The position numbers were made by a program, and so were the translations under genes. From assembly GCF_000425125.1 (NCBI RefSeq), contig NZ_AULE01000031.1, forward strand, positions 62,001-126,000: a stretch of DNA of 64,000 nt, in the 5' to 3' direction. Positions 32,204 through 40,246 of this stretch are shown piece after piece. Source of the DNA: Paenibacillus taiwanensis DSM 18679. GTDB lineage: Bacteria; Bacillota; Bacilli; Paenibacillales; Paenibacillaceae. The notes beneath the pieces were generated by a model. The model was given only the letters and a program-made list of their open reading frames with translations, was not told the DNA's origin and did not search any database. The number at the start of each line of letters is the position of its first letter. Position 1 is the first letter of the stretch.

Positions 32204-32238
32204 AGCACCTGCGGAACTAACCGCAGGTGCTTTGTTGT
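32204..32238 (+). terminator. terminator of acnA
   Basis: Perfect 11-bp stem AGCACCTGCGG/CCGCAGGTGCT (32204-32214, 32221-32231) with a 6-base loop and TTGTTGT after it. Confidence 0.92.
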
Positions 32239-32425: not shown

Positions 32426-32932
32426 GTGCTTGTAATCGGCGCTGTCACAAGGCTTGTCGAGCCAGATCACCCGCTCTTGTTCGAATTGGCTGCTACCGTC
32501 AAGAGAGATGAGCTTGCAGCATGGAACTGGCCTGCACTGGAGCTTGAAGCGTTTATCCAACAGCAATTAACATATCAACTGCACACCTATCAGCAGCGAT
32601 ACCCCCAATTAAAGTGCAGCATCCTTGAACTGGACAATCGACCAATCGGTCGACTTATTCTCCATCAAGATGCAGCTCGTATTCACATCTTAGATATCGC
32701 TATCGTTCCAGAACATCAAGGTCAGGGCCACGGGACCCACCTCCTGCGCACTATGATGCAAACGGCTTATAATACCGGTCGTTCTATTTATTTGCATGCA
32801 GACCTGCAAGGAAAGGCGATAATGTGGTATGACAAGCTAGGCTTTGAGTCCCAGCCTGTCGTGCAATATCCTTATGTTCCGATGGAATACATACCAACCG
32901 CCATAGATGGCGCTTATTTGAAAGGAGATTAA
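32426..32932 (+). CDS. GNAT-family N-acetyltransferase, first gene of the surface-protein cluster
   Basis: 168 residues. The acetyl-CoA-binding motif A is clear: IHILDIAIVPEHQGQGHGTHLLRTMMQTAYNTG (about 90-122), with the Q/RxxGxG/A form as QGQGHG. The start is uncertain: GTG at 32426 sits on the only Shine-Dalgarno-like GAGG. The stop is one base before the ATG of the first tail-collar gene, so it is clearly in the same operon. GNAT genes are often linked to microcystin-dependent-protein genes, and it may acetylate one of the surface proteins or be a metabolic bystander; this is inference. Confidence 0.8.
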   Translation: MLVIGAVTRLVEPDHPLLFELAATVKRDELAAWNWPALELEAFIQQQLTYQLHTYQQRYPQLKCSILELDNRPIGRLILHQDAARIHILDIAIVPEHQGQGHGTHLLRTMMQTAYNTGRSIYLHADLQGKAIMWYDKLGFESQPVVQYPYVPMEYIPTAIDGAYLKGD

Positions 32933-32933
32933 T

Positions 32934-33434
32934 ATGGCTGAACCTTATGTTGGTGAAATTCGTATGTTCTCAGGCAGTTACGCCCCTCAAGGCTGGGCGC
33001 TGTGTAATGGGCAACTGTTATCCATTTCGGAAAATGAAATTTTATTTATACTGCTTGGCACTACTTATGGTGGCGATGGGCAGACCACATTTGCGCTGCC
33101 TGACCTTCGTGGTCGTGTACCGATTCATAACACGCCCACGTATCCGCTTGGCAGCAGAGGCGGAACCGAGACGGTGACACTTACGGCGACGCAACTTCCA
33201 AGTCATAGCCATAGCATCGTCTCAACAAATGAGCAGGCGACGCAGCAGAGCCCTGCGAACGCCACATGGGCGGCTCCTGGCAGCGCCATTTACGGGGACC
33301 AAGCACCTGTGGGCACGATGAGTCCTGCAAGCATACTGCCAGCAGGCGGCAATCAGCCTCATAACAACATCATGCCTTATCTCACAGTCAATTTTATCAT
33401 TTCACTATTCGGTATCTTTCCTAGTCAAAGCTAA
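32934..33434 (+). CDS. phage-tail-collar / microcystin-dependent protein family, copy 1
   Basis: 166 residues. The N-terminal collar fold is typical: PYVGEIRMFSGSYAPQGWALCNGQLLSI (4-31), LLGTTYGGDGQTTFALPDLRGRVPIH (41-66), and a LPSHSHS motif near 91. The C-terminus ends NQPHNNIMPYLTVNFIISLFGIFPSQS, the family signature. No signal peptide. GAAAGGAG precedes ATG by seven bases. These MdpA/MdpB-like proteins are widespread outside phages and their role is unknown. It starts one base after the GNAT gene and is followed at 28 bp by copy 2. Confidence 0.88.
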   Translation: MAEPYVGEIRMFSGSYAPQGWALCNGQLLSISENEILFILLGTTYGGDGQTTFALPDLRGRVPIHNTPTYPLGSRGGTETVTLTATQLPSHSHSIVSTNEQATQQSPANATWAAPGSAIYGDQAPVGTMSPASILPAGGNQPHNNIMPYLTVNFIISLFGIFPSQS

Positions 33435-33462
33435 ACTACAATTCATAGAAGGAGGAATTCTT

Positions 33463-33966
33463 GTGTCAGAACCCTTTTTGGCCGAAATCCGTCTTTTCCC
33501 ATATGGCTTTGCCCCTAAAGGCTGGTTGCCTTGTGAAGGACAAATACTTAGCATTAATAACAATCAGGCCTTATTTTCACTAGTCGGTACAACTTATGGC
33601 GGCGATGGTAGAACGACCTTTGCACTACCCAACTTGAAAGGAAGAGTCCCTATTCATACAAGTTCATCACATACGCTAGGGCAATCTCAAGGGGAAGCGA
33701 CGCATACTCTAACGATTAATGAAATGCCTGCGCATGTACATATAGCTCGCGCGAGTTCACAACCGCCTTCACTCCCATCCGCGCAGGACAACGTATGGGC
33801 AGCAGGAGTTGCTGACAGCTACGTACCTGTGGCGGCTGCTCCGAGCAACATGTCTGCTTCTGCCCTTGCTCCAGTAGGAGGCAGCCAACCGCATAACAAT
33901 ATGCAGCCTTACCTTAGCTTACAATTCTGCATTGCAATTGTTGGTATTTATCCTAGCCGCAGCTAA
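33463..33966 (+). CDS. phage-tail-collar / microcystin-dependent protein family, copy 2
   Basis: 167 residues starting at GTG with GGAGG seven bases before it. It has the same plan as copy 1 (FLAEIRLFPYGFAPKGWLPCEGQILSI, TTYGGDGRTTFALPNLKGRVPIH, MPAHVH, SQPHNNMQPYLSLQFCIAIVGIYPSRS) but is well diverged, particularly in the central variable region (about 95-140). The Cys of WLPCEG aligns with WALCNG in the other copies. The three copies therefore look like old duplicates kept for different jobs, for example hetero-oligomer subunits. Confidence 0.88.
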   Translation: MSEPFLAEIRLFPYGFAPKGWLPCEGQILSINNNQALFSLVGTTYGGDGRTTFALPNLKGRVPIHTSSSHTLGQSQGEATHTLTINEMPAHVHIARASSQPPSLPSAQDNVWAAGVADSYVPVAAAPSNMSASALAPVGGSQPHNNMQPYLSLQFCIAIVGIYPSRS

Positions 33967-33984
33967 TCGGAGGAGGACACATTT

Positions 33985-34503
33985 ATGGATCCATTTGTAG
34001 GTGAAATTAGAATATTCGCAGGTAACTTTGCGCCTGTAGGTTGGGCTTTATGCAACGGACAGCTTCTAAACATCAGATCATATTCAGCGCTGTATGCCAT
34101 ACTAGGAACAACGTATGGTGGGGATGGCAAGAACACCTTTGCACTGCCTAATATGCAGGGCAAAGCGCCCATTCATCAAGGAGCAGGACCTGCTCTAAGT
34201 GAATACCCGCTCGGCAGCACCGGCGGCAGCGAAACTGTGACCCTATTGGAAACGGAAATACCGTCGCACACACATACACCGCAATTTACCAAAGGAGCAA
34301 ATCAAGAGCTGCCCTCTCCCAACCTATGGGCGGAGTCTTCCAAAAAGCCACGGCCCAATCTGTACCAAAGCACAGCAGATGTATCGATGTCTCCGTACGC
34401 TGTACAGCCAGCCGGTGGAAGCCAGTCGCATAACAACATGCAGCCTTATTTGGTAATGAATTATATTATTGCTTTGGAAGGGGTTTTCCCGCCAAGAAGT
34501 TAG
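33985..34503 (+). CDS. phage-tail-collar / microcystin-dependent protein family, copy 3
   Basis: 172 residues. Collar signatures again: DPFVGEIRIFAGNFAPVGWALCNGQLLNI, TTYGGDGKNTFALPNMQGKAPIH, IPSHTHT and SQSHNNMQPYLVMNYIIALEGVFPPRS. GGAGGAGG lies upstream of ATG. The stop is 35 bp before the start of the giant SLH protein, so all five genes form one transcript. No signal peptide is visible, so if these proteins act outside the cell they need a non-Sec route or release by lysis. Confidence 0.88.
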   Translation: MDPFVGEIRIFAGNFAPVGWALCNGQLLNIRSYSALYAILGTTYGGDGKNTFALPNMQGKAPIHQGAGPALSEYPLGSTGGSETVTLLETEIPSHTHTPQFTKGANQELPSPNLWAESSKKPRPNLYQSTADVSMSPYAVQPAGGSQSHNNMQPYLVMNYIIALEGVFPPRS

Positions 34504-34538
34504 TTGTGCAGTCTGAGCACAGAAAGGAGCTTTATCGC

Positions 34539-37500
34539 ATGCGTATAAGAAAGCCGAGAAGTGCCTTCTCCTTCTTGGTCCGAATCGTCCTGTCGGTCTT
34601 GTTAATACTCCAAGCATTTCCTTTAAATATGCCCGTAATAGAAGCCGCGGGTGCTACTATCATTGAAGTTAATTCGTTCGCGGATACGATTGATATCAGC
34701 GATCAGGATGGAAAATGTGCGGACAGCTTCAATCAATGCAGCTTACGTGCAGCCATTATGGAGAGCAACCGCACTCCTGATCTCACTACCATTTTGGTCC
34801 CTATTGGTGTCTATACACTGACACTTGCAGGCACTGACCATACGGGACTTGCCGGAGATTTGGACATCCACAGCTCGGTTATGATCAGGGGTATGGGGGC
34901 AGATCCTGGTCAGGTGATCATTCAAGCAGGTGCTTCCCCTGCTGGCAGTATCGATCGAATATTCGAGCTAGTAGGTTCCCTATCGCCGGATGAACCTTTG
35001 ACTAATGCTAACGTTACAATTGAGAATGTGACGCTGCTAAATGCTAAAGGAAAAGACGAGTATGGCGGTGGTATTTCCGCTTATGTTAATGGTGGCTCGT
35101 TAACCATTCGCAACTCCATTTTTAAGCACATTGAGTCCAAAGAAAGTGGAGTAAGCTTGGACGTCGGCGGCTCTGCCCTGTACTATGGCGGCATCAACGG
35201 CGCACATTTGATTATTAGCGGCTCAACGTTTAGCGAGAATCGTTCAACTTCTAATGGAGGAGCTGTGTTTATTACAGGTGCAGTAACTGCTAACCTCCAA
35301 AATAATATATTTTCAAATAATACAGCCTCACGCGCTGGCGGAGCGTTATATGCAGACAGTCAATCCGCCTTAACACCAAGCTACATTAATATCGAGAACT
35401 CTTCTTTTATAAACAATGCAGCTTCTGGTTATCCAAGCAGTCGTGGTGGCGCCCTGACGTTATATTCAATGACTGGACGTGTGGTACAGTCCACATTTGT
35501 CGGCAACTCCTCTTCTGCAAGTGGCGGAGCGATTAGTATAGAATCAGGATCACCCGTTACGCTTACTCAAAATACGATTGTCCACAATCAAGCCACCGTA
35601 TCAGGTGGCGGCCTGTGGGTACAAGCGAACAATTCCAAACTATCGCTGCACAATAACATCGTTGCAGAAAATACGAGCGTCGGCGGTAATATTGCGGGAG
35701 CAGCCATACAATCTGCTCAACATAATTTGATTGGTCCTGGCCACAGCACCTTAACTACAGATGTGGGTAATCAGTTTGATGTTATCAGTGCGGGCTTAGG
35801 TCCGTTGACTACTACTGCTGCTGGCAAGCTGCCACATATGCCACTGCATATGGATAGTCCAGCTATTGATGCTGGCAACAATTTGCTTGTGTTAACCTCA
35901 ACAGATATGGATGGGGGCACACGGATTTTAGATAGTGCAGATGCAGATACTATTGCAACGGTTGATATCGGAGCTATTGAAGCGCATCCTACCCTATCGC
36001 CTATTACCGGACAGCAGGTTACAAGTGGCGGCTCTGTCCATATTCCGTTTAGAGTTGGTGATGCAAGCCGAGGCGTAAACGTCACCGCAGTGACTTATGA
36101 TCCTTTACTGATTTCAAGCACAACAGTCACTGGTTCTGGACAAGAGCGGACGCTTGAAATCCACACCGTCGCGGGCAAATCGGGTGTAGCAACGGTTGTG
36201 CTGGCAGCAACCGCACTTGACGGAAGGACAGGCACACGCTCCATCGATGTGACGATAACTGCTATTCCGGATTTGACACTTTCGAAGACACATACCGGCA
36301 ATTTCAAGCAGGGGCAGACAAATGCCAGCTATACGCTAACTGCGAGTAATATAGGTGCTGCTGCTACCTCAGGGCTCGTCAAGGTCACGGATACGCTGCC
36401 GCCAGGCCTTATCGCCAAGTCTATCTCAGGCGCAGGTTGGACGTGCACAGTTGGTACAGTTACGTGCACACGCAGCGACGCTTTGGCTGGTGGAGGCCAA
36501 TATCCACCAATCACCCTACTCGTAGACGTGAATGGTGTGCCGTCAACTGCCATTAACCGTGCCGAAATATCTGGCGGCGGAGACGGCAATTCGACGAATA
36601 ATATGGTCGAAGATCCGACTCTGATTGAGTCCGGCGTGGACCTGACTCTTAATTTGGTGCCACAGGGAGCTTTCCGTCAGAATGAGTCAGGAACTTATAT
36701 ACTTAGCGTGACAAATCAGGGCTCCTATAAGACCGATGGCTCGGCAGTCGTGGCATCGTTTACCGTACCTGCATCATTTACGCTTACTGGATTAAGTGGT
36801 TCAGGATGGTCCTGCTCTGTTGCAACCTCCTCCTGTACGCGTACAAATGAACTTCCTGTCTCAGCCAGTTACCCGAGCATTACAGCCCAGGTGATGGTTG
36901 CGGCCAATTCACCCGCCAGCGTAACGATGGGTGCAGCAATTACTGGTGGAGGAGATACCAGCTCGGCCAACAACACGACTTCACTCGTTACTGTTATCGA
37001 ACAAGTGCCGGACATTACCCTTCAACTGCAATCAAACGATACTTTTACTCAGGGTGATAGCGGCAAAATAGTCAAAATTGAGGTTCGGAATGAAGGTGAT
37101 GGAGCCACAGCAGGCGCCATTAATGTAACGCTTCAAATTCCATCGGGGCTTCAATTGACAGCACTAAATGGACAGGATTGGAGTTGCAACCAGACCACTA
37201 AATTGTGCACACGAAATACTGCCATCCCACCACATAGTTCATCAACGATAACGGCCGAGTTGGCAGTAGATCCTACCGCGCCTGCATCCATTGAGCTAAA
37301 AGCAGCCGCGTCGGGCGGTGGCGAGCAGAACACGACTAATAATGCGGCGACCTATCACGTTCAAGTAGTGCAGAAGCCGGATCTCGTACCATCTATTACA
37401 GCAGTTGGCCCGTATGCACAGCACCAGAGCAGTGCCAAAGTGCTCTTAACGGCCCAAAATAACGGCACAGGCCCTTCTTCAGGCACAATAACATTGAAGG

Positions 37501-39572
37501 TTACTCCTCCCGCTGGCTGGACGCTGGACAGTTGGAACAACAGCACGGGCTGGTCATGTCAAGTTAACACTAGCTCTTGTTCCTACGCTGGCGCAATTGA
37601 TGCTGGAACTGCTGCACCAGACGTGGGTGCCGTCTTCCGCATTGCAGATCATGCACCAGCAGCAGCGGTCATCAACGTAGAAATACAGGGTGGCAGTGAC
37701 GTGAACAACGTCAATAATACGGCTAGCAAACAGGTAACAGTCAAGCAGTTAGCTGATTTGAAACTAGCGCTTATTGCGGACAGTACTTTCCGCCAAGGGC
37801 AGCAGGACGCCTCTTACAGGCTGACGGTGTCGAATATAGGCAGCGGCCCTTCTGAAGGCAGCGTTAATGCCAAGCTCGAACTACCGTCACAGCTCATATT
37901 AAAGCGTTTAGTTGGCATAGGATGGTCCTGTGACGTAGCGACAGCCCAATGTACGCGCAGCGACGTCGCACAACCCGGTGGCAACTATACGGACATTGTT
38001 GCCACCGTCGCGGTTGCGCATAATGCCCCTGCCACGCTGACTGCCAAAGCTGTAGTAAGCGGTGGGGGCGAGGTTCTTACAGCAAACAGCGACGCTGTGG
38101 TGGACACTACAATTACACCAGCAGCAGATTTAGCAGCATGGTTACAAGCGTCGGGCACATATGAGCAAGGGCAGCAGCAAGCCGAGATGACGGTTACTGT
38201 AGCCAACTATGGACAAGGGTCTACGAAAGGTACTGTACATGTCCAACTGGACTTCCCGCAAGGGTTACAATTGCTCACAGCTACAGGTAACGGCTGGTCA
38301 TGCGACCTTACTCAAAAGCAATGTATACGTTCGGATGAACTGACCCAAAGCCAAGCCTACCCTGCCCTTCTGCTTCGCTTTAACATTCCTTGGGATGCCT
38401 TGGCATCCTATGTGATAACAGCGGAAGTAAGCGGAGGTGCAGAAATAAATGACGCCAATAATAAGGCGTCACTGCAAGCTGCCATTAAACAGCTGCCCGA
38501 CTTAACGTTACAATTAAGTCCGAGCGGCACCTTTAAGCAAGGGCAAAGCGACGCCAAGTATGGAATCACTGTCCATAATAAAGGCGCTGCCGCAACGACT
38601 GCACCTATATCTGTGCAGTTGCAGCTACCTTCTGATTTGACACTAGTCAAGGCTGGCGATTCGCAATGGACTTGTGACACGAGCACCAGCACATGCGTTT
38701 ACAATGGAGTTGTCGATGTCGGCAAGTCTGCTCCCGTACTAACCGTCACGGTTAAGGTCGCGTCTAACGCGCCGGCGACGTTATCCGCACGTGCAACGGT
38801 TAGCGGTGGGGGCGAGAAACAGATCGCTAACAATACAACCAGCCACCTTACCACCATCACACCTGTAAGTTCAGGTGGGGACAACGGATCTGGCTCTGGT
38901 GGGGATTCTGGTTCAGGAACCGGGAATAACAATGGAAATACAGGCACAGACGGGTCTAACGGCAATGGAAGCGGCAATGGAGACGGAAATGCCAATGGTA
39001 ACACCGGCGGCAAAGACGGTGAAGGCTCGATCAAACCGGATACTTCCTTACTCGATATTAAAGGGCATTGGGCCGAGAGCAACATTGTTAGCCTGATCCA
39101 GAATAAGGTTATTAACGGGTATGCGGATCGAACATTCCGTCCAAACAACTCTATCACACGTGCAGAATTTGCGGTCCTGCTGGACAGGCTCCTCCAATTA
39201 GAAGGAGCTGCATCTGCTCCTAGCTTTACGGACAAACCGTCAATTCCCGATTGGGCAGCGACTTCTATTTATCGGTTGTACAACAGAGGCATTGTGAAAG
39301 GGTATCATAACGGGCAGTTTAAGCCTCATGCCTTCATCACTCGTGCCGAAATGGCAACGATGATCTATCGTGCATTTACGCCGTCTGCCGCAGTCAGCAA
39401 GCTTACATTTACGGATGCAGACCTTATCCCGACCTGGGCAGGAGATGCGATCCAAGCCTTATACAGCGCTCATATTGTTACAGGTTATCAGGATGGCAGC
39501 TATCGCCCGCACAAACAGACTACTAGAGCGGAAACAGCAGCCATTTTGTACCGAATGACTCATAAAAAGTAG
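34539..39572 (+). CDS. giant S-layer-anchored surface protein: CSLREA beta-helix, seven DUF11-like repeats, three SLH domains
   Basis: 1,677 residues. ATG at 34539 has GGAG nine bases upstream. A signal peptide ends near residue 37. Residues ~38-490 form a CSLREA-type domain (GKCADSFNQCSLRAAI) and a parallel beta-helix rich in Asn/Ser/Gly rungs, closing with a choice-of-anchor-Q-like SPAIDAGNN...DIGAIEA. After an Ig-like domain come seven ~123-residue DUF11-like repeats starting near 578, 700, 824, 946, 1071, 1196 and 1320, each with a GW[ST]C-x(5-6)-C pair. A Gly/Ser/Asn linker (about 1441-1503) leads to three SLH domains (ITRAE signatures) that bind pyruvylated wall polymer. Last gene of the cluster; probably an adhesin or stalk. 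Confidence 0.9.
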   Translation: MRIRKPRSAFSFLVRIVLSVLLILQAFPLNMPVIEAAGATIIEVNSFADTIDISDQDGKCADSFNQCSLRAAIMESNRTPDLTTILVPIGVYTLTLAGTDHTGLAGDLDIHSSVMIRGMGADPGQVIIQAGASPAGSIDRIFELVGSLSPDEPLTNANVTIENVTLLNAKGKDEYGGGISAYVNGGSLTIRNSIFKHIESKESGVSLDVGGSALYYGGINGAHLIISGSTFSENRSTSNGGAVFITGAVTANLQNNIFSNNTASRAGGALYADSQSALTPSYINIENSSFINNAASGYPSSRGGALTLYSMTGRVVQSTFVGNSSSASGGAISIESGSPVTLTQNTIVHNQATVSGGGLWVQANNSKLSLHNNIVAENTSVGGNIAGAAIQSAQHNLIGPGHSTLTTDVGNQFDVISAGLGPLTTTAAGKLPHMPLHMDSPAIDAGNNLLVLTSTDMDGGTRILDSADADTIATVDIGAIEAHPTLSPITGQQVTSGGSVHIPFRVGDASRGVNVTAVTYDPLLISSTTVTGSGQERTLEIHTVAGKSGVATVVLAATALDGRTGTRSIDVTITAIPDLTLSKTHTGNFKQGQTNASYTLTASNIGAAATSGLVKVTDTLPPGLIAKSISGAGWTCTVGTVTCTRSDALAGGGQYPPITLLVDVNGVPSTAINRAEISGGGDGNSTNNMVEDPTLIESGVDLTLNLVPQGAFRQNESGTYILSVTNQGSYKTDGSAVVASFTVPASFTLTGLSGSGWSCSVATSSCTRTNELPVSASYPSITAQVMVAANSPASVTMGAAITGGGDTSSANNTTSLVTVIEQVPDITLQLQSNDTFTQGDSGKIVKIEVRNEGDGATAGAINVTLQIPSGLQLTALNGQDWSCNQTTKLCTRNTAIPPHSSSTITAELAVDPTAPASIELKAAASGGGEQNTTNNAATYHVQVVQKPDLVPSITAVGPYAQHQSSAKVLLTAQNNGTGPSSGTITLKVTPPAGWTLDSWNNSTGWSCQVNTSSCSYAGAIDAGTAAPDVGAVFRIADHAPAAAVINVEIQGGSDVNNVNNTASKQVTVKQLADLKLALIADSTFRQGQQDASYRLTVSNIGSGPSEGSVNAKLELPSQLILKRLVGIGWSCDVATAQCTRSDVAQPGGNYTDIVATVAVAHNAPATLTAKAVVSGGGEVLTANSDAVVDTTITPAADLAAWLQASGTYEQGQQQAEMTVTVANYGQGSTKGTVHVQLDFPQGLQLLTATGNGWSCDLTQKQCIRSDELTQSQAYPALLLRFNIPWDALASYVITAEVSGGAEINDANNKASLQAAIKQLPDLTLQLSPSGTFKQGQSDAKYGITVHNKGAAATTAPISVQLQLPSDLTLVKAGDSQWTCDTSTSTCVYNGVVDVGKSAPVLTVTVKVASNAPATLSARATVSGGGEKQIANNTTSHLTTITPVSSGGDNGSGSGGDSGSGTGNNNGNTGTDGSNGNGSGNGDGNANGNTGGKDGEGSIKPDTSLLDIKGHWAESNIVSLIQNKVINGYADRTFRPNNSITRAEFAVLLDRLLQLEGAASAPSFTDKPSIPDWAATSIYRLYNRGIVKGYHNGQFKPHAFITRAEMATMIYRAFTPSAAVSKLTFTDADLIPTWAGDAIQALYSAHIVTGYQDGSYRPHKQTTRAETAAILYRMTHKK

Positions 39573-39574
39573 CA

Positions 39575-39616
39575 CAAAAGGCCTTCTGACCAATAACTGG
39601 CAGAAGGCCTTTTGCG
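39575..39616 (+). terminator. terminator of the SLH surface-protein cluster
   Basis: Perfect 14-bp stem CAAAAGGCCTTCTG/CAGAAGGCCTTTTG (39575-39588, 39601-39614), 12-base loop, with TTTT inside the 3' arm. It lies three bases after the stop codon. Confidence 0.88.
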
Positions 39617-39700
39617 CTGCTGAGACAACATACTTCCCTCCGCATAAGCCTATGCATATAATAACGCAGCATAATGAAAGCCCATACACGGAGGTGTCCT

Positions 39701-40246
39701 ATGGGAATAGAACTTGCAGCCATACACGGTATATACGTCCCATTTGTCGCGCTGATTATCGGTTTTCTAATTTGTCGGAGGGATACGACCCTGATTTGTA
39801 TTGTGGGCATATGCGCCCTCGGATGGATGGCGGGTGGCTCGCTTATTACAGCCGTCAGCGGTATATTTTCCAGCTTCGTTTATGCCATTAAAGAATTACT
39901 CGGCACGATTCTAATTATTTCGATAAGAGTTGGCTTGCCCGCGCTGGCAGTGGCGATGTCTATGAACCTGTTCGGTCACGGCATCGCCCTCTCAGGCGAC
40001 TTTATCATTCAAGGCGCGCCAAAGCTTACAGCAGATGCAGCCAATCTCCCTGTAGCAAGCGTTATTGCCGCTAGTGTACCACTAGTGCTCGTCATGGGGA
40101 TCGTTACGACATGTTCCGCCTTCTGGTTCATACGACGCGATATGAAAAGCGGCAAATTAACGCTGACTTCAGGCCAAGCTTCTCCTATCGTTGCCTCATC
40201 ACCTACACTCCTAATTGCCCGTACTTTTATAACTTCGTATTCCTAG
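39701..40246 (+). pseudogene. probable truncated multi-pass permease
   Basis: 181 codons from ATG at 39701 (GGAGG seven bases upstream). About five hydrophobic segments read like part of a larger permease: GIYVPFVALIIGFLI, LICIVGICALGWMAGG, TILIISIRVGLPALAVAMSMNLFGHGIALSGDFIIQG and VIAASVPLVLVMGIVTT. Half-size length, the abrupt non-hydrophobic tail, and a last dozen codons that are antisense to the 3' end of the convergent ABC permease gene suggest the 3' part was lost when the AT-rich ABC cluster arrived. An internal in-frame deletion around ILIISI-RVGLPAL is also possible. It could still be a short functional membrane protein. Confidence 0.5.

Follow-up and report, generated by a model that had tools for sequence, protein, structure and literature searches.

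The closest described system to the one considered here is the tripartite tail of the virophage DSLV2, in which three consecutive PF07484 (tail-collar) proteins form a 1:1:1 heterotrimer that binds Synechococcus cells, as supported by co-purification, native polyacrylamide gel electrophoresis and electron microscopy (PMC12724248). In phage T4, the collar fibre gp12 is a homotrimer with a long shaft and part of the virion, and the metal on its threefold axis is held by His445 and His447 of each chain (PMC3004832). In Rhizobium, RhiB of the rhiABC(D) operon is a PF07484 protein thought to be relevant to plant contact; the operon is flanked by luxI/luxR-type genes, and PF07484 is reported for RhiB only, none being found in RhiA or RhiC (PMC13133039). 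Elsewhere, a PF07484 protein whose membership of a triad is not established occurs in the exoproteome of Ruegeria pomeroyi (PMC4949626), and collar paralogs of Solibacter show signs of positive selection (PMC3174227). Here we describe a five-gene block of Paenibacillus taiwanensis DSM 18679, which encodes a GNAT acetyltransferase, three tail-collar proteins (A, B and C) and a giant surface protein with SLH domains. It lies in a stretch of 64,000 nucleotides of contig NZ_AULE01000031.1, hereafter the window.

The block is a Bacillota example of a system that is found in at least nine phyla. Like the DSLV2 tail, it has three consecutive PF07484 genes whose products fall into separate clades, and this holds at 78 of 78 complete loci. 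Accordingly, the principle of a three-collar heterotrimer is not new, since it has been published for DSLV2. On the other hand, the DSLV2 clades follow gene position, whereas gene order varies among the bacterial triads, and the DSLV2 trimer is a virion part encoded beside a minor capsid protein gene (PMC12724248), whereas the bacterial triads lie on chromosomes and plasmids together with a GNAT and a stalk or DUF6916 protein. Unlike in DSLV2, no viral structural family was found among the 20 scanned neighbours of the window triad. None of the terms GNAT, acetyltransferase, prophage, chromosom and bacterial genomes is used in PMC12724248, and no description of a bacterial triad with GNAT, DUF6916 and stalk was found in the available parts of the open-licence literature searched. 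The first-pass annotation had proposed the block as a candidate for an undescribed system; this is only partly borne out, as the collar heterotrimer encoded by three consecutive genes has its precedent in DSLV2.

Compared with the other precedents, the collars share with the T4 gp12/gp37 tip a PF07484 collar base and an HxH motif. The correspondence of this motif to His445 and His447 lies outside the profile alignment, because the match of the collar profile to the gp12 chain 1ocy (E 1.7e-5) ends at residue 72, before the HxH region. Unlike the one-collar Rhi operon, the window block has three collar genes, and no luxI/luxR-type match was found among the scanned window neighbours. The giant resembles SLH-anchored multi-repeat surface proteins, which carry DUF11, Ig or cadherin repeats and three SLH domains, but differs in that its gene is grouped with a collar triad, and in some relatives the chain itself contains three collars. 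The features of the block are as follows.

32204..32231, plus strand: terminator-like hairpin 3' of the aconitase gene, the 5' border of the block (folds at -24.2 kcal/mol)
32426..32932, plus strand: GNAT acetyltransferase of the triad-associated family (PF00583); GTG start uncertain
32934..33434, plus strand: tail-collar protein of family A, 166 amino acids (PF07484 and tree)
33204..33212, plus strand: HxH motif of A (H91, H93)
33213..33344, plus strand: variable head of A, residues 94-137
33463..33966, plus strand: tail-collar protein of family B, 167 amino acids (PF07484 and tree)
33733..33741, plus strand: HxH motif of B (H91, H93)
33742..33876, plus strand: variable head of B, residues 94-138
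33985..34503, plus strand: tail-collar protein of family C, 172 amino acids (PF07484 and tree)
34267..34275, plus strand: HxH motif of C (H95, H97)
34276..34413, plus strand: variable head of C, residues 98-143
34539..39572, plus strand: giant surface protein with a signal peptide (by eye), choice-of-anchor Q, DUF11 repeats and three SLH domains (Pfam, NCBIfam)
36270..36605, plus strand: top-scoring DUF11 stretch of the giant (Pfam)
39060..39560, plus strand: SLH wall-anchor region of the giant (Pfam, NCBIfam)
39575..39614, plus strand: terminator-like hairpin, the 3' border of the block (folds at -31.3 kcal/mol)

The window proteins were typed with Pfam and NCBIfam profiles under curated cut-offs, and with PHROG profiles. 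All three collars match PF07484 (E 3e-29 to 5e-27, 94-101 bits against a cut-off of 24), and these are the only three matches in the whole genome. The GNAT gene matches PF00583 (E 1.5e-12, 48.3 bits against 20.7), and the giant matches DUF11 (E 3e-36) and, in three stretches above the cut-off, SLH (138.6 bits). In NCBIfam, the giant exceeds the choice-of-anchor Q cut-off (31.9 against 25 bits) and falls short of that for CSLREA (21.5 against 25), so the CSLREA label given to it earlier is marginal, while its length of 1,677 amino acids and its DUF11/SLH content were upheld. This length is counted from ATG 34539, which is preceded by a likely ribosome site (by eye); the longest open reading frame (ORF), from GTG 34506, has 1,688 amino acids. 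With the giant counted from this ATG, the gaps within the block are 1, 28, 18 and 35 bp. The description of five closely spaced plus-strand genes with this domain content, bounded by terminators on both sides, thus agrees with the ORF and Pfam checks and with the folding of both hairpins.

To place the block among other bacteria, genome contigs were searched with a three-collar alignment, and the best 80 of 586 relatives were taken, giving 81 loci with the window. Exactly three collar ORFs are present at 79 of them; the other two (L074 and L075) have two, at a contig edge. The loci belong to Pseudomonadota (29), Bacillota (22), Acidobacteriota (9), Bacteroidota (8), Actinomycetota (4), Chloroflexota (3), Verrucomicrobiota (2) and Myxococcota (2), with two unlabelled, the window among them; triads on plasmids of Deinococcota add a ninth phylum. 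For the collar tree, L074, L075 and L069, whose third collar gene is cut, were left out, which gave 78 complete loci and 234 proteins. The tree resolves three clades, each with exactly one protein per locus at all 78 loci, with support of 96, 89 and 98 in FastTree and 99, 89 and 98 in the quick IQ-TREE run. Gene order is BAC at 47 loci, ABC at 29 and ACB at 2, with the A/B/C set constant throughout. As judged from this tree, A, B and C are three orthologous families. Over 67 loci, their distance matrices show correlations of 0.87-0.89 with one another; with the GNAT, which aligns less cleanly, the values are 0.42-0.52.

A scan with PF07484 alone over 296 genomes of the order is freer of the bias that comes with choosing loci by collar A. 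The family is present in 124 of these genomes, and 101 of the 124 have a multiple of three matches (3 in 93, 6 in 7 and 9 in 1), three-collar single chains being counted as three. Among 50 genomes chosen as triad carriers, 41 have multiples of three.

The collars are also joined to one another in some genomes. In six fetched genomes (L213-L218), A and B are fused through a Gly-rich linker with C separate, and seven relatives (L114-L120) have ORFs with three collar domains. Four of these (L114, L115, L117 and L118) are complete. By Pfam, each combines three collar and three SLH stretches with repeats in one chain, which starts with an apparent signal peptide (by eye). The collars in them are of reduced length and, by eye, seem to have lost the HxH heads. 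No recognised GNAT was found in the fetched stretches of L114-L120. These chains indicate that three collars can be one unit at the chain end opposite the SLH anchor, and they are direct evidence for a collar-on-stalk design.

Considering the constant set and the fusions, it is likely that A, B and C form a mixed heterotrimer. Alternatively, they could be three separate homotrimers of different specificities that are displayed as a set. Phage collar fibres such as gp12 are indeed homotrimers (PMC3004832), and every collar protein here has a full collar domain. However, loss or duplication of single members should be commoner if the three acted separately, whereas one member of each family is kept at all 78 loci; the short Gly-rich linker of the A-B fusions, the three-collar single chains and the mixed trimer of DSLV2 (PMC12724248) also speak for heterotrimers. 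We therefore regard the homotrimer alternative as improbable.

BLAST clusters of triad neighbours are led by the GNAT (67 loci) and the giant (55 loci) and continue with small clusters, among them two of DUF6916 (8 and 7 loci) and one of ABC ATPases (8 loci). A same-strand ORF of at least 700 amino acids stands directly beside the block at 52 of 81 loci, and 45 of these 52 fall in one BLAST cluster of large surface-type proteins. Of the other genes at the same loci, 47 of 606 reach this size (p 7e-30), although this control is rough, being made of genes rather than neighbour pairs, with strand ignored, ORFs mechanically called and no matching. The giant may stand upstream, downstream or divergent, and both downstream and upstream-divergent arrangements occur within the same genus. 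In a Pfam scan of 24 giants, Big_9 was found in 15, Cadherin_5 in 13, SLH in 7, DUF11 in 4, a T9SS sorting tail in 2, and CWB2 and RTX in 1 each. From these domains, the giants are taken to be stalk repeats, some with an anchor that fits the lineage, the type differing between lineages. On a Ruegeria plasmid (not from the exoproteome study), a triad and GNAT occur with a large choice-of-anchor D protein.

As side observations, the upstream giants of Gram-negative triads often share a short Gly-rich tail with a late Cys and Pro (by eye; viewed in L051, L065, L072, L105 and L107), which may serve in docking or sorting. Two Brevibacillus genomes have, where the giant would follow the triad, a protein of about 440 amino acids instead (L036:2825-4138, L049:11615-12955); the one of the two that was scanned, L049:11615-12955, contains an AAA ATPase domain.

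We consider surface display with the stalk probable, and the earlier proposal that the collars are tied to a surface stalk is supported by both the large-neighbour association and the three-collar/SLH fusions. The collars could instead act in the cytosol, for example as a sensor or decoy with the GNAT, the giant being merely a frequent neighbour. In agreement with this, the free collars start without a signal peptide (N-termini viewed by eye) and 29 of 81 triads have no large same-strand neighbour. However, three collars are fused to SLH domains behind a signal peptide, DUF6916 proteins with signals occur at triads, the collar heads vary in the manner of phage receptor-binding tips, and a PF07484 protein has been found in an exoproteome (PMC4949626). 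On this evidence, a purely cytosolic role seems unlikely to us.

DUF6916 (PF21880) bears on how the collars might leave the cell. Five of 98 relatives have it, in every case 51-105 bp upstream of the triad's first collar match, and so do 46 of 50 triad genomes, most of which belong to other phyla. With a purpose-built profile it was detected at 55 of 81 loci, one of them weakly (28 of 29 in Pseudomonadota, 7 of 8 in Bacteroidota and 8 of 22 in Bacillota), whereas the window genome is without it. At some loci, DUF6916 has a Tat- or Sec-like signal (by motif or eye; five confirmed as DUF6916 by Pfam), and there are 15 cases of ORFs with a Tat-like motif close to a triad. Such signals near the triads suggest export of a folded complex. 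Separately, in several alphaproteobacteria a protein of about 400-440 amino acids and no clear Pfam family stands between collar C and the GNAT (L080:3263-4483, L096:11064-12380 and, by position and size only, L224:10126-11343).

The GNAT is more constant at the triads than the giant. Among 60 relatives, 17 genomes have separate-gene triads, and 16 of these show a strong match (E at most 1.8e-13), always adjoining the triad; of the 43 other genomes, one has such a match (Fisher p 1.9e-12), which lies by a 1,585-amino-acid ORF without a collar (G079). All other matches listed have E 4.9e-8 or worse. Over the 81 loci, the GNAT lies within 4.5 kb at 69, by a profile built from these same proteins; it was not seen at 12, several of which have little sequence on one side. 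The earlier suggestion that GNAT, collars and giant belong together was right in that they are linked, but the triad with the GNAT forms a more constant core than the triad with the SLH protein.

Regarding the target, the PDB entry that best matches the GNAT profile is annotated as an N-terminal acetyltransferase, followed by many NAA50/RimI-like entries among other GNATs, although GNATs cross-match broadly. At position 2, 227 of 234 collars (start codons chosen by script) have A, S, D or E; among 220 other plus-strand ORFs called mechanically from an ATG at the same loci, the share is 22%. The conserved collar N-termini fit an N-terminal acetylase acting on the collars, and a structural cause is equally possible; we consider action of the GNAT on the collars plausible. 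A general housekeeping or toxin-type acetyltransferase that is linked by adjacency only is a rather unlikely alternative. In its favour, the GNAT scores below the NCBIfam cut-off of every named equivalog, rimI included, and is missing from the available sequence of 12 of 81 loci. On the other side stand the wide gap between the strong matches (16 beside triads and one orphan) and all others, the 16 of 17 against 1 of 43 genomes, and an N-terminal signature of its own that is conserved in the triad-associated family. No antitoxin gene was found beside the window GNAT, whose adjoining genes are those for aconitase and collar A; in the 242-bp gap 5' of it, the sole ORF of at least 30 amino acids is a 54-amino-acid antisense frame running into the GNAT.

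We then compared the collars residue by residue. The strict PxHxH pattern is present in 234 of 241 collars; two of the seven exceptions are truncated ahead of the motif and the other five have HxH but not the Pro, so HxH is found in all 239 collars that reach this region. Mean pairwise identity is 0.54-0.88 over residues 1-70 in all three families, falls to 0.17-0.29 per ten-residue block over residues 101-130, and climbs again at the edges of this stretch. By analogy, this variability of the head resembles the pattern of phage receptor-binding tips. Between the window and its nearest relative (G003), the head is less identical than the rest in A and B.

In two close genomes that were compared, the block behaves as a unit. 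G003 has all five genes in the same place between the same neighbours, with identities to the window of 83-88% for the collars, 76% for the GNAT and 81% for the SLH protein, against 97-98% for aconitase, Ddl and amidase on one flank and 93-95% for the ABC transporter genes on the other; the ORF directly 3' of the block is only 53% identical. The ratio of nonsynonymous to synonymous substitution (dN/dS) against G003 is 0.02 in aconitase, 0.10 in A, 0.18 in B, 0.14 in C and 0.31 in the GNAT. Together these values indicate that the block genes are intact and under selection, and that they evolve faster than most of the flanks. In G004, no collar match was found in the genome; a homologue of the window's downstream ORF stands about 330 bp behind the aconitase gene, the block is missing, and an ORF with an SLH-like match lies farther along in opposite orientation. 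In these two genomes, the block is thus either wholly there (G003) or wholly missing (G004), which agrees with the view of it as self-contained. The downstream window ORF at 39674-40246 has 190 amino acids against about 479 in its G003 and 472 in its G004 counterpart, and thus looks truncated or broken.

Because collars are classic phage tail parts and all three window collars match PHROG tail families, the block could be taken for prophage debris or for part of an undetected tailocin or injection machine. The Pfam scan found no phage structural family among the 20 neighbouring window proteins, 17 of which matched something (aconitase, Ddl, ThiC, ABC transporters, superoxide dismutase and one D12 DNA methyltransferase among them). 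Further, there is no other collar in the genome, dN/dS is low, and the same partners recur in differing genomic contexts; neighbours at the non-window loci were grouped by BLAST clusters, and the phage-family scan covered the window. When 27 collars from viral contigs of the triad type were included in a tree, 18 of them fell outside the cellular A, B and C clades. The remaining nine come from L133, which is listed as viral and has two A-B-C sets within the cellular clades, and from L135. The viral contig L135:1-5456 has nine consecutive collar genes, apparently three triads. The first-pass view that this is not prophage debris was thus supported, and we regard prophage debris or a hidden tailocin or injection machine as extremely improbable. 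On the plasmid records viewed, PF07484 proteins of the triad kind are mostly named tail fibre proteins, a naming that invites their reading as phage remnants.

Taken together, we favour the reading of the block as a surface recognition device, in which a 1:1:1 trimer of A, B and C is displayed with a giant stalk, and consider it somewhat more probable than its alternatives combined. In this mechanism, A, B and C would be synthesised side by side and co-fold as a 1:1:1 heterotrimer, the collar base of which would resemble that of T4 gp12. One HxH pair per chain would be contributed, probably to a single metal ion in the centre, and the three hypervariable heads, each about 45 residues long, would give the tip three different faces. 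Before the collars are exported, the adjoining GNAT would most likely modify them, perhaps through acetylation of the small residues conserved at their N-termini. The trimer would work outside the cell together with the giant stalk, which is SLH-anchored in the window, and may bind glycans or other surfaces.

Several observations weigh against this reading. The 80 loci were ranked by similarity to window collar A, which is a selection bias. Once viral and single collars are included in the tree, one cellular protein of family B and two of family C no longer fall in their clades, and three viral collars of L135 group with A. In the order-wide scan, 23 of 124 genomes have numbers of collars that are not multiples of three (1 in 14, 4 in 5, 2 in 3 and 7 in 1). 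The first-pass annotation had held that collar genes scattered without the SLH protein would break the functional link; the complete loci keep one A, B and C each, but 14 of 124 genomes have a single match. In the one of these 14 that was viewed, a single collar (L131:7100-7819) adjoins a 1,728-amino-acid SLH-like giant. Further odd loci are L130:8866-10186, a reduced version like L131, with two collars of 210-220 amino acids, a GNAT and a 2,909-amino-acid SLH giant; G020, with a triad but no triad-type GNAT; and the orphan triad-type GNAT mentioned above (L113:7213-7710), beside a 1,585-amino-acid ORF in a genome without a collar match. To these are added the 29 triads without a large same-strand neighbour and, bearing on export in the window lineage, the lack of a signal peptide (by eye) on the free collars. 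Between the window and G003, the head of C evolves no faster than its base. Finally, AlphaFold gave a predicted local distance difference test score (pLDDT) of 28 for a joined A-B-C read-through (8 rows), and a mean pLDDT of 48.5 with a predicted template modelling score of 0.45 for a joined B-A-C chain (32 rows), in which only the cores of the three heads reached block means of 82-95 and the collar bases stayed below 40; fold searches gave no significant match.

More tentatively, and with clearly less confidence than in the surface recognition device as such, we can imagine a surface organelle of many phyla built on an obligate A:B:C heterotrimer. It would combine cytosolic assembly and N-terminal acetylation, export in the folded state (along the Tat pathway, together with a signal-bearing DUF6916 or another Tat partner where present), lineage-specific stalks and a fast-diversifying recognition tip. 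If so, the receptor-binding tips of phages would have a counterpart in cells, which might be the source or a relative of the virophage version.

In summary, the block of P. taiwanensis belongs to an ordered and conserved system of many phyla with at least two dedicated partners, the GNAT family and DUF6916. Vague annotations can be replaced by testable claims, namely that three chains form one heteromer, that the orphan acetyltransferase has a substrate here and that there is a role for DUF6916, whose signal-bearing copies make the question of collar export approachable. If the reading as a surface recognition device is true, a receptor-recognition device best known from phages would also be a widespread surface tool of bacteria.

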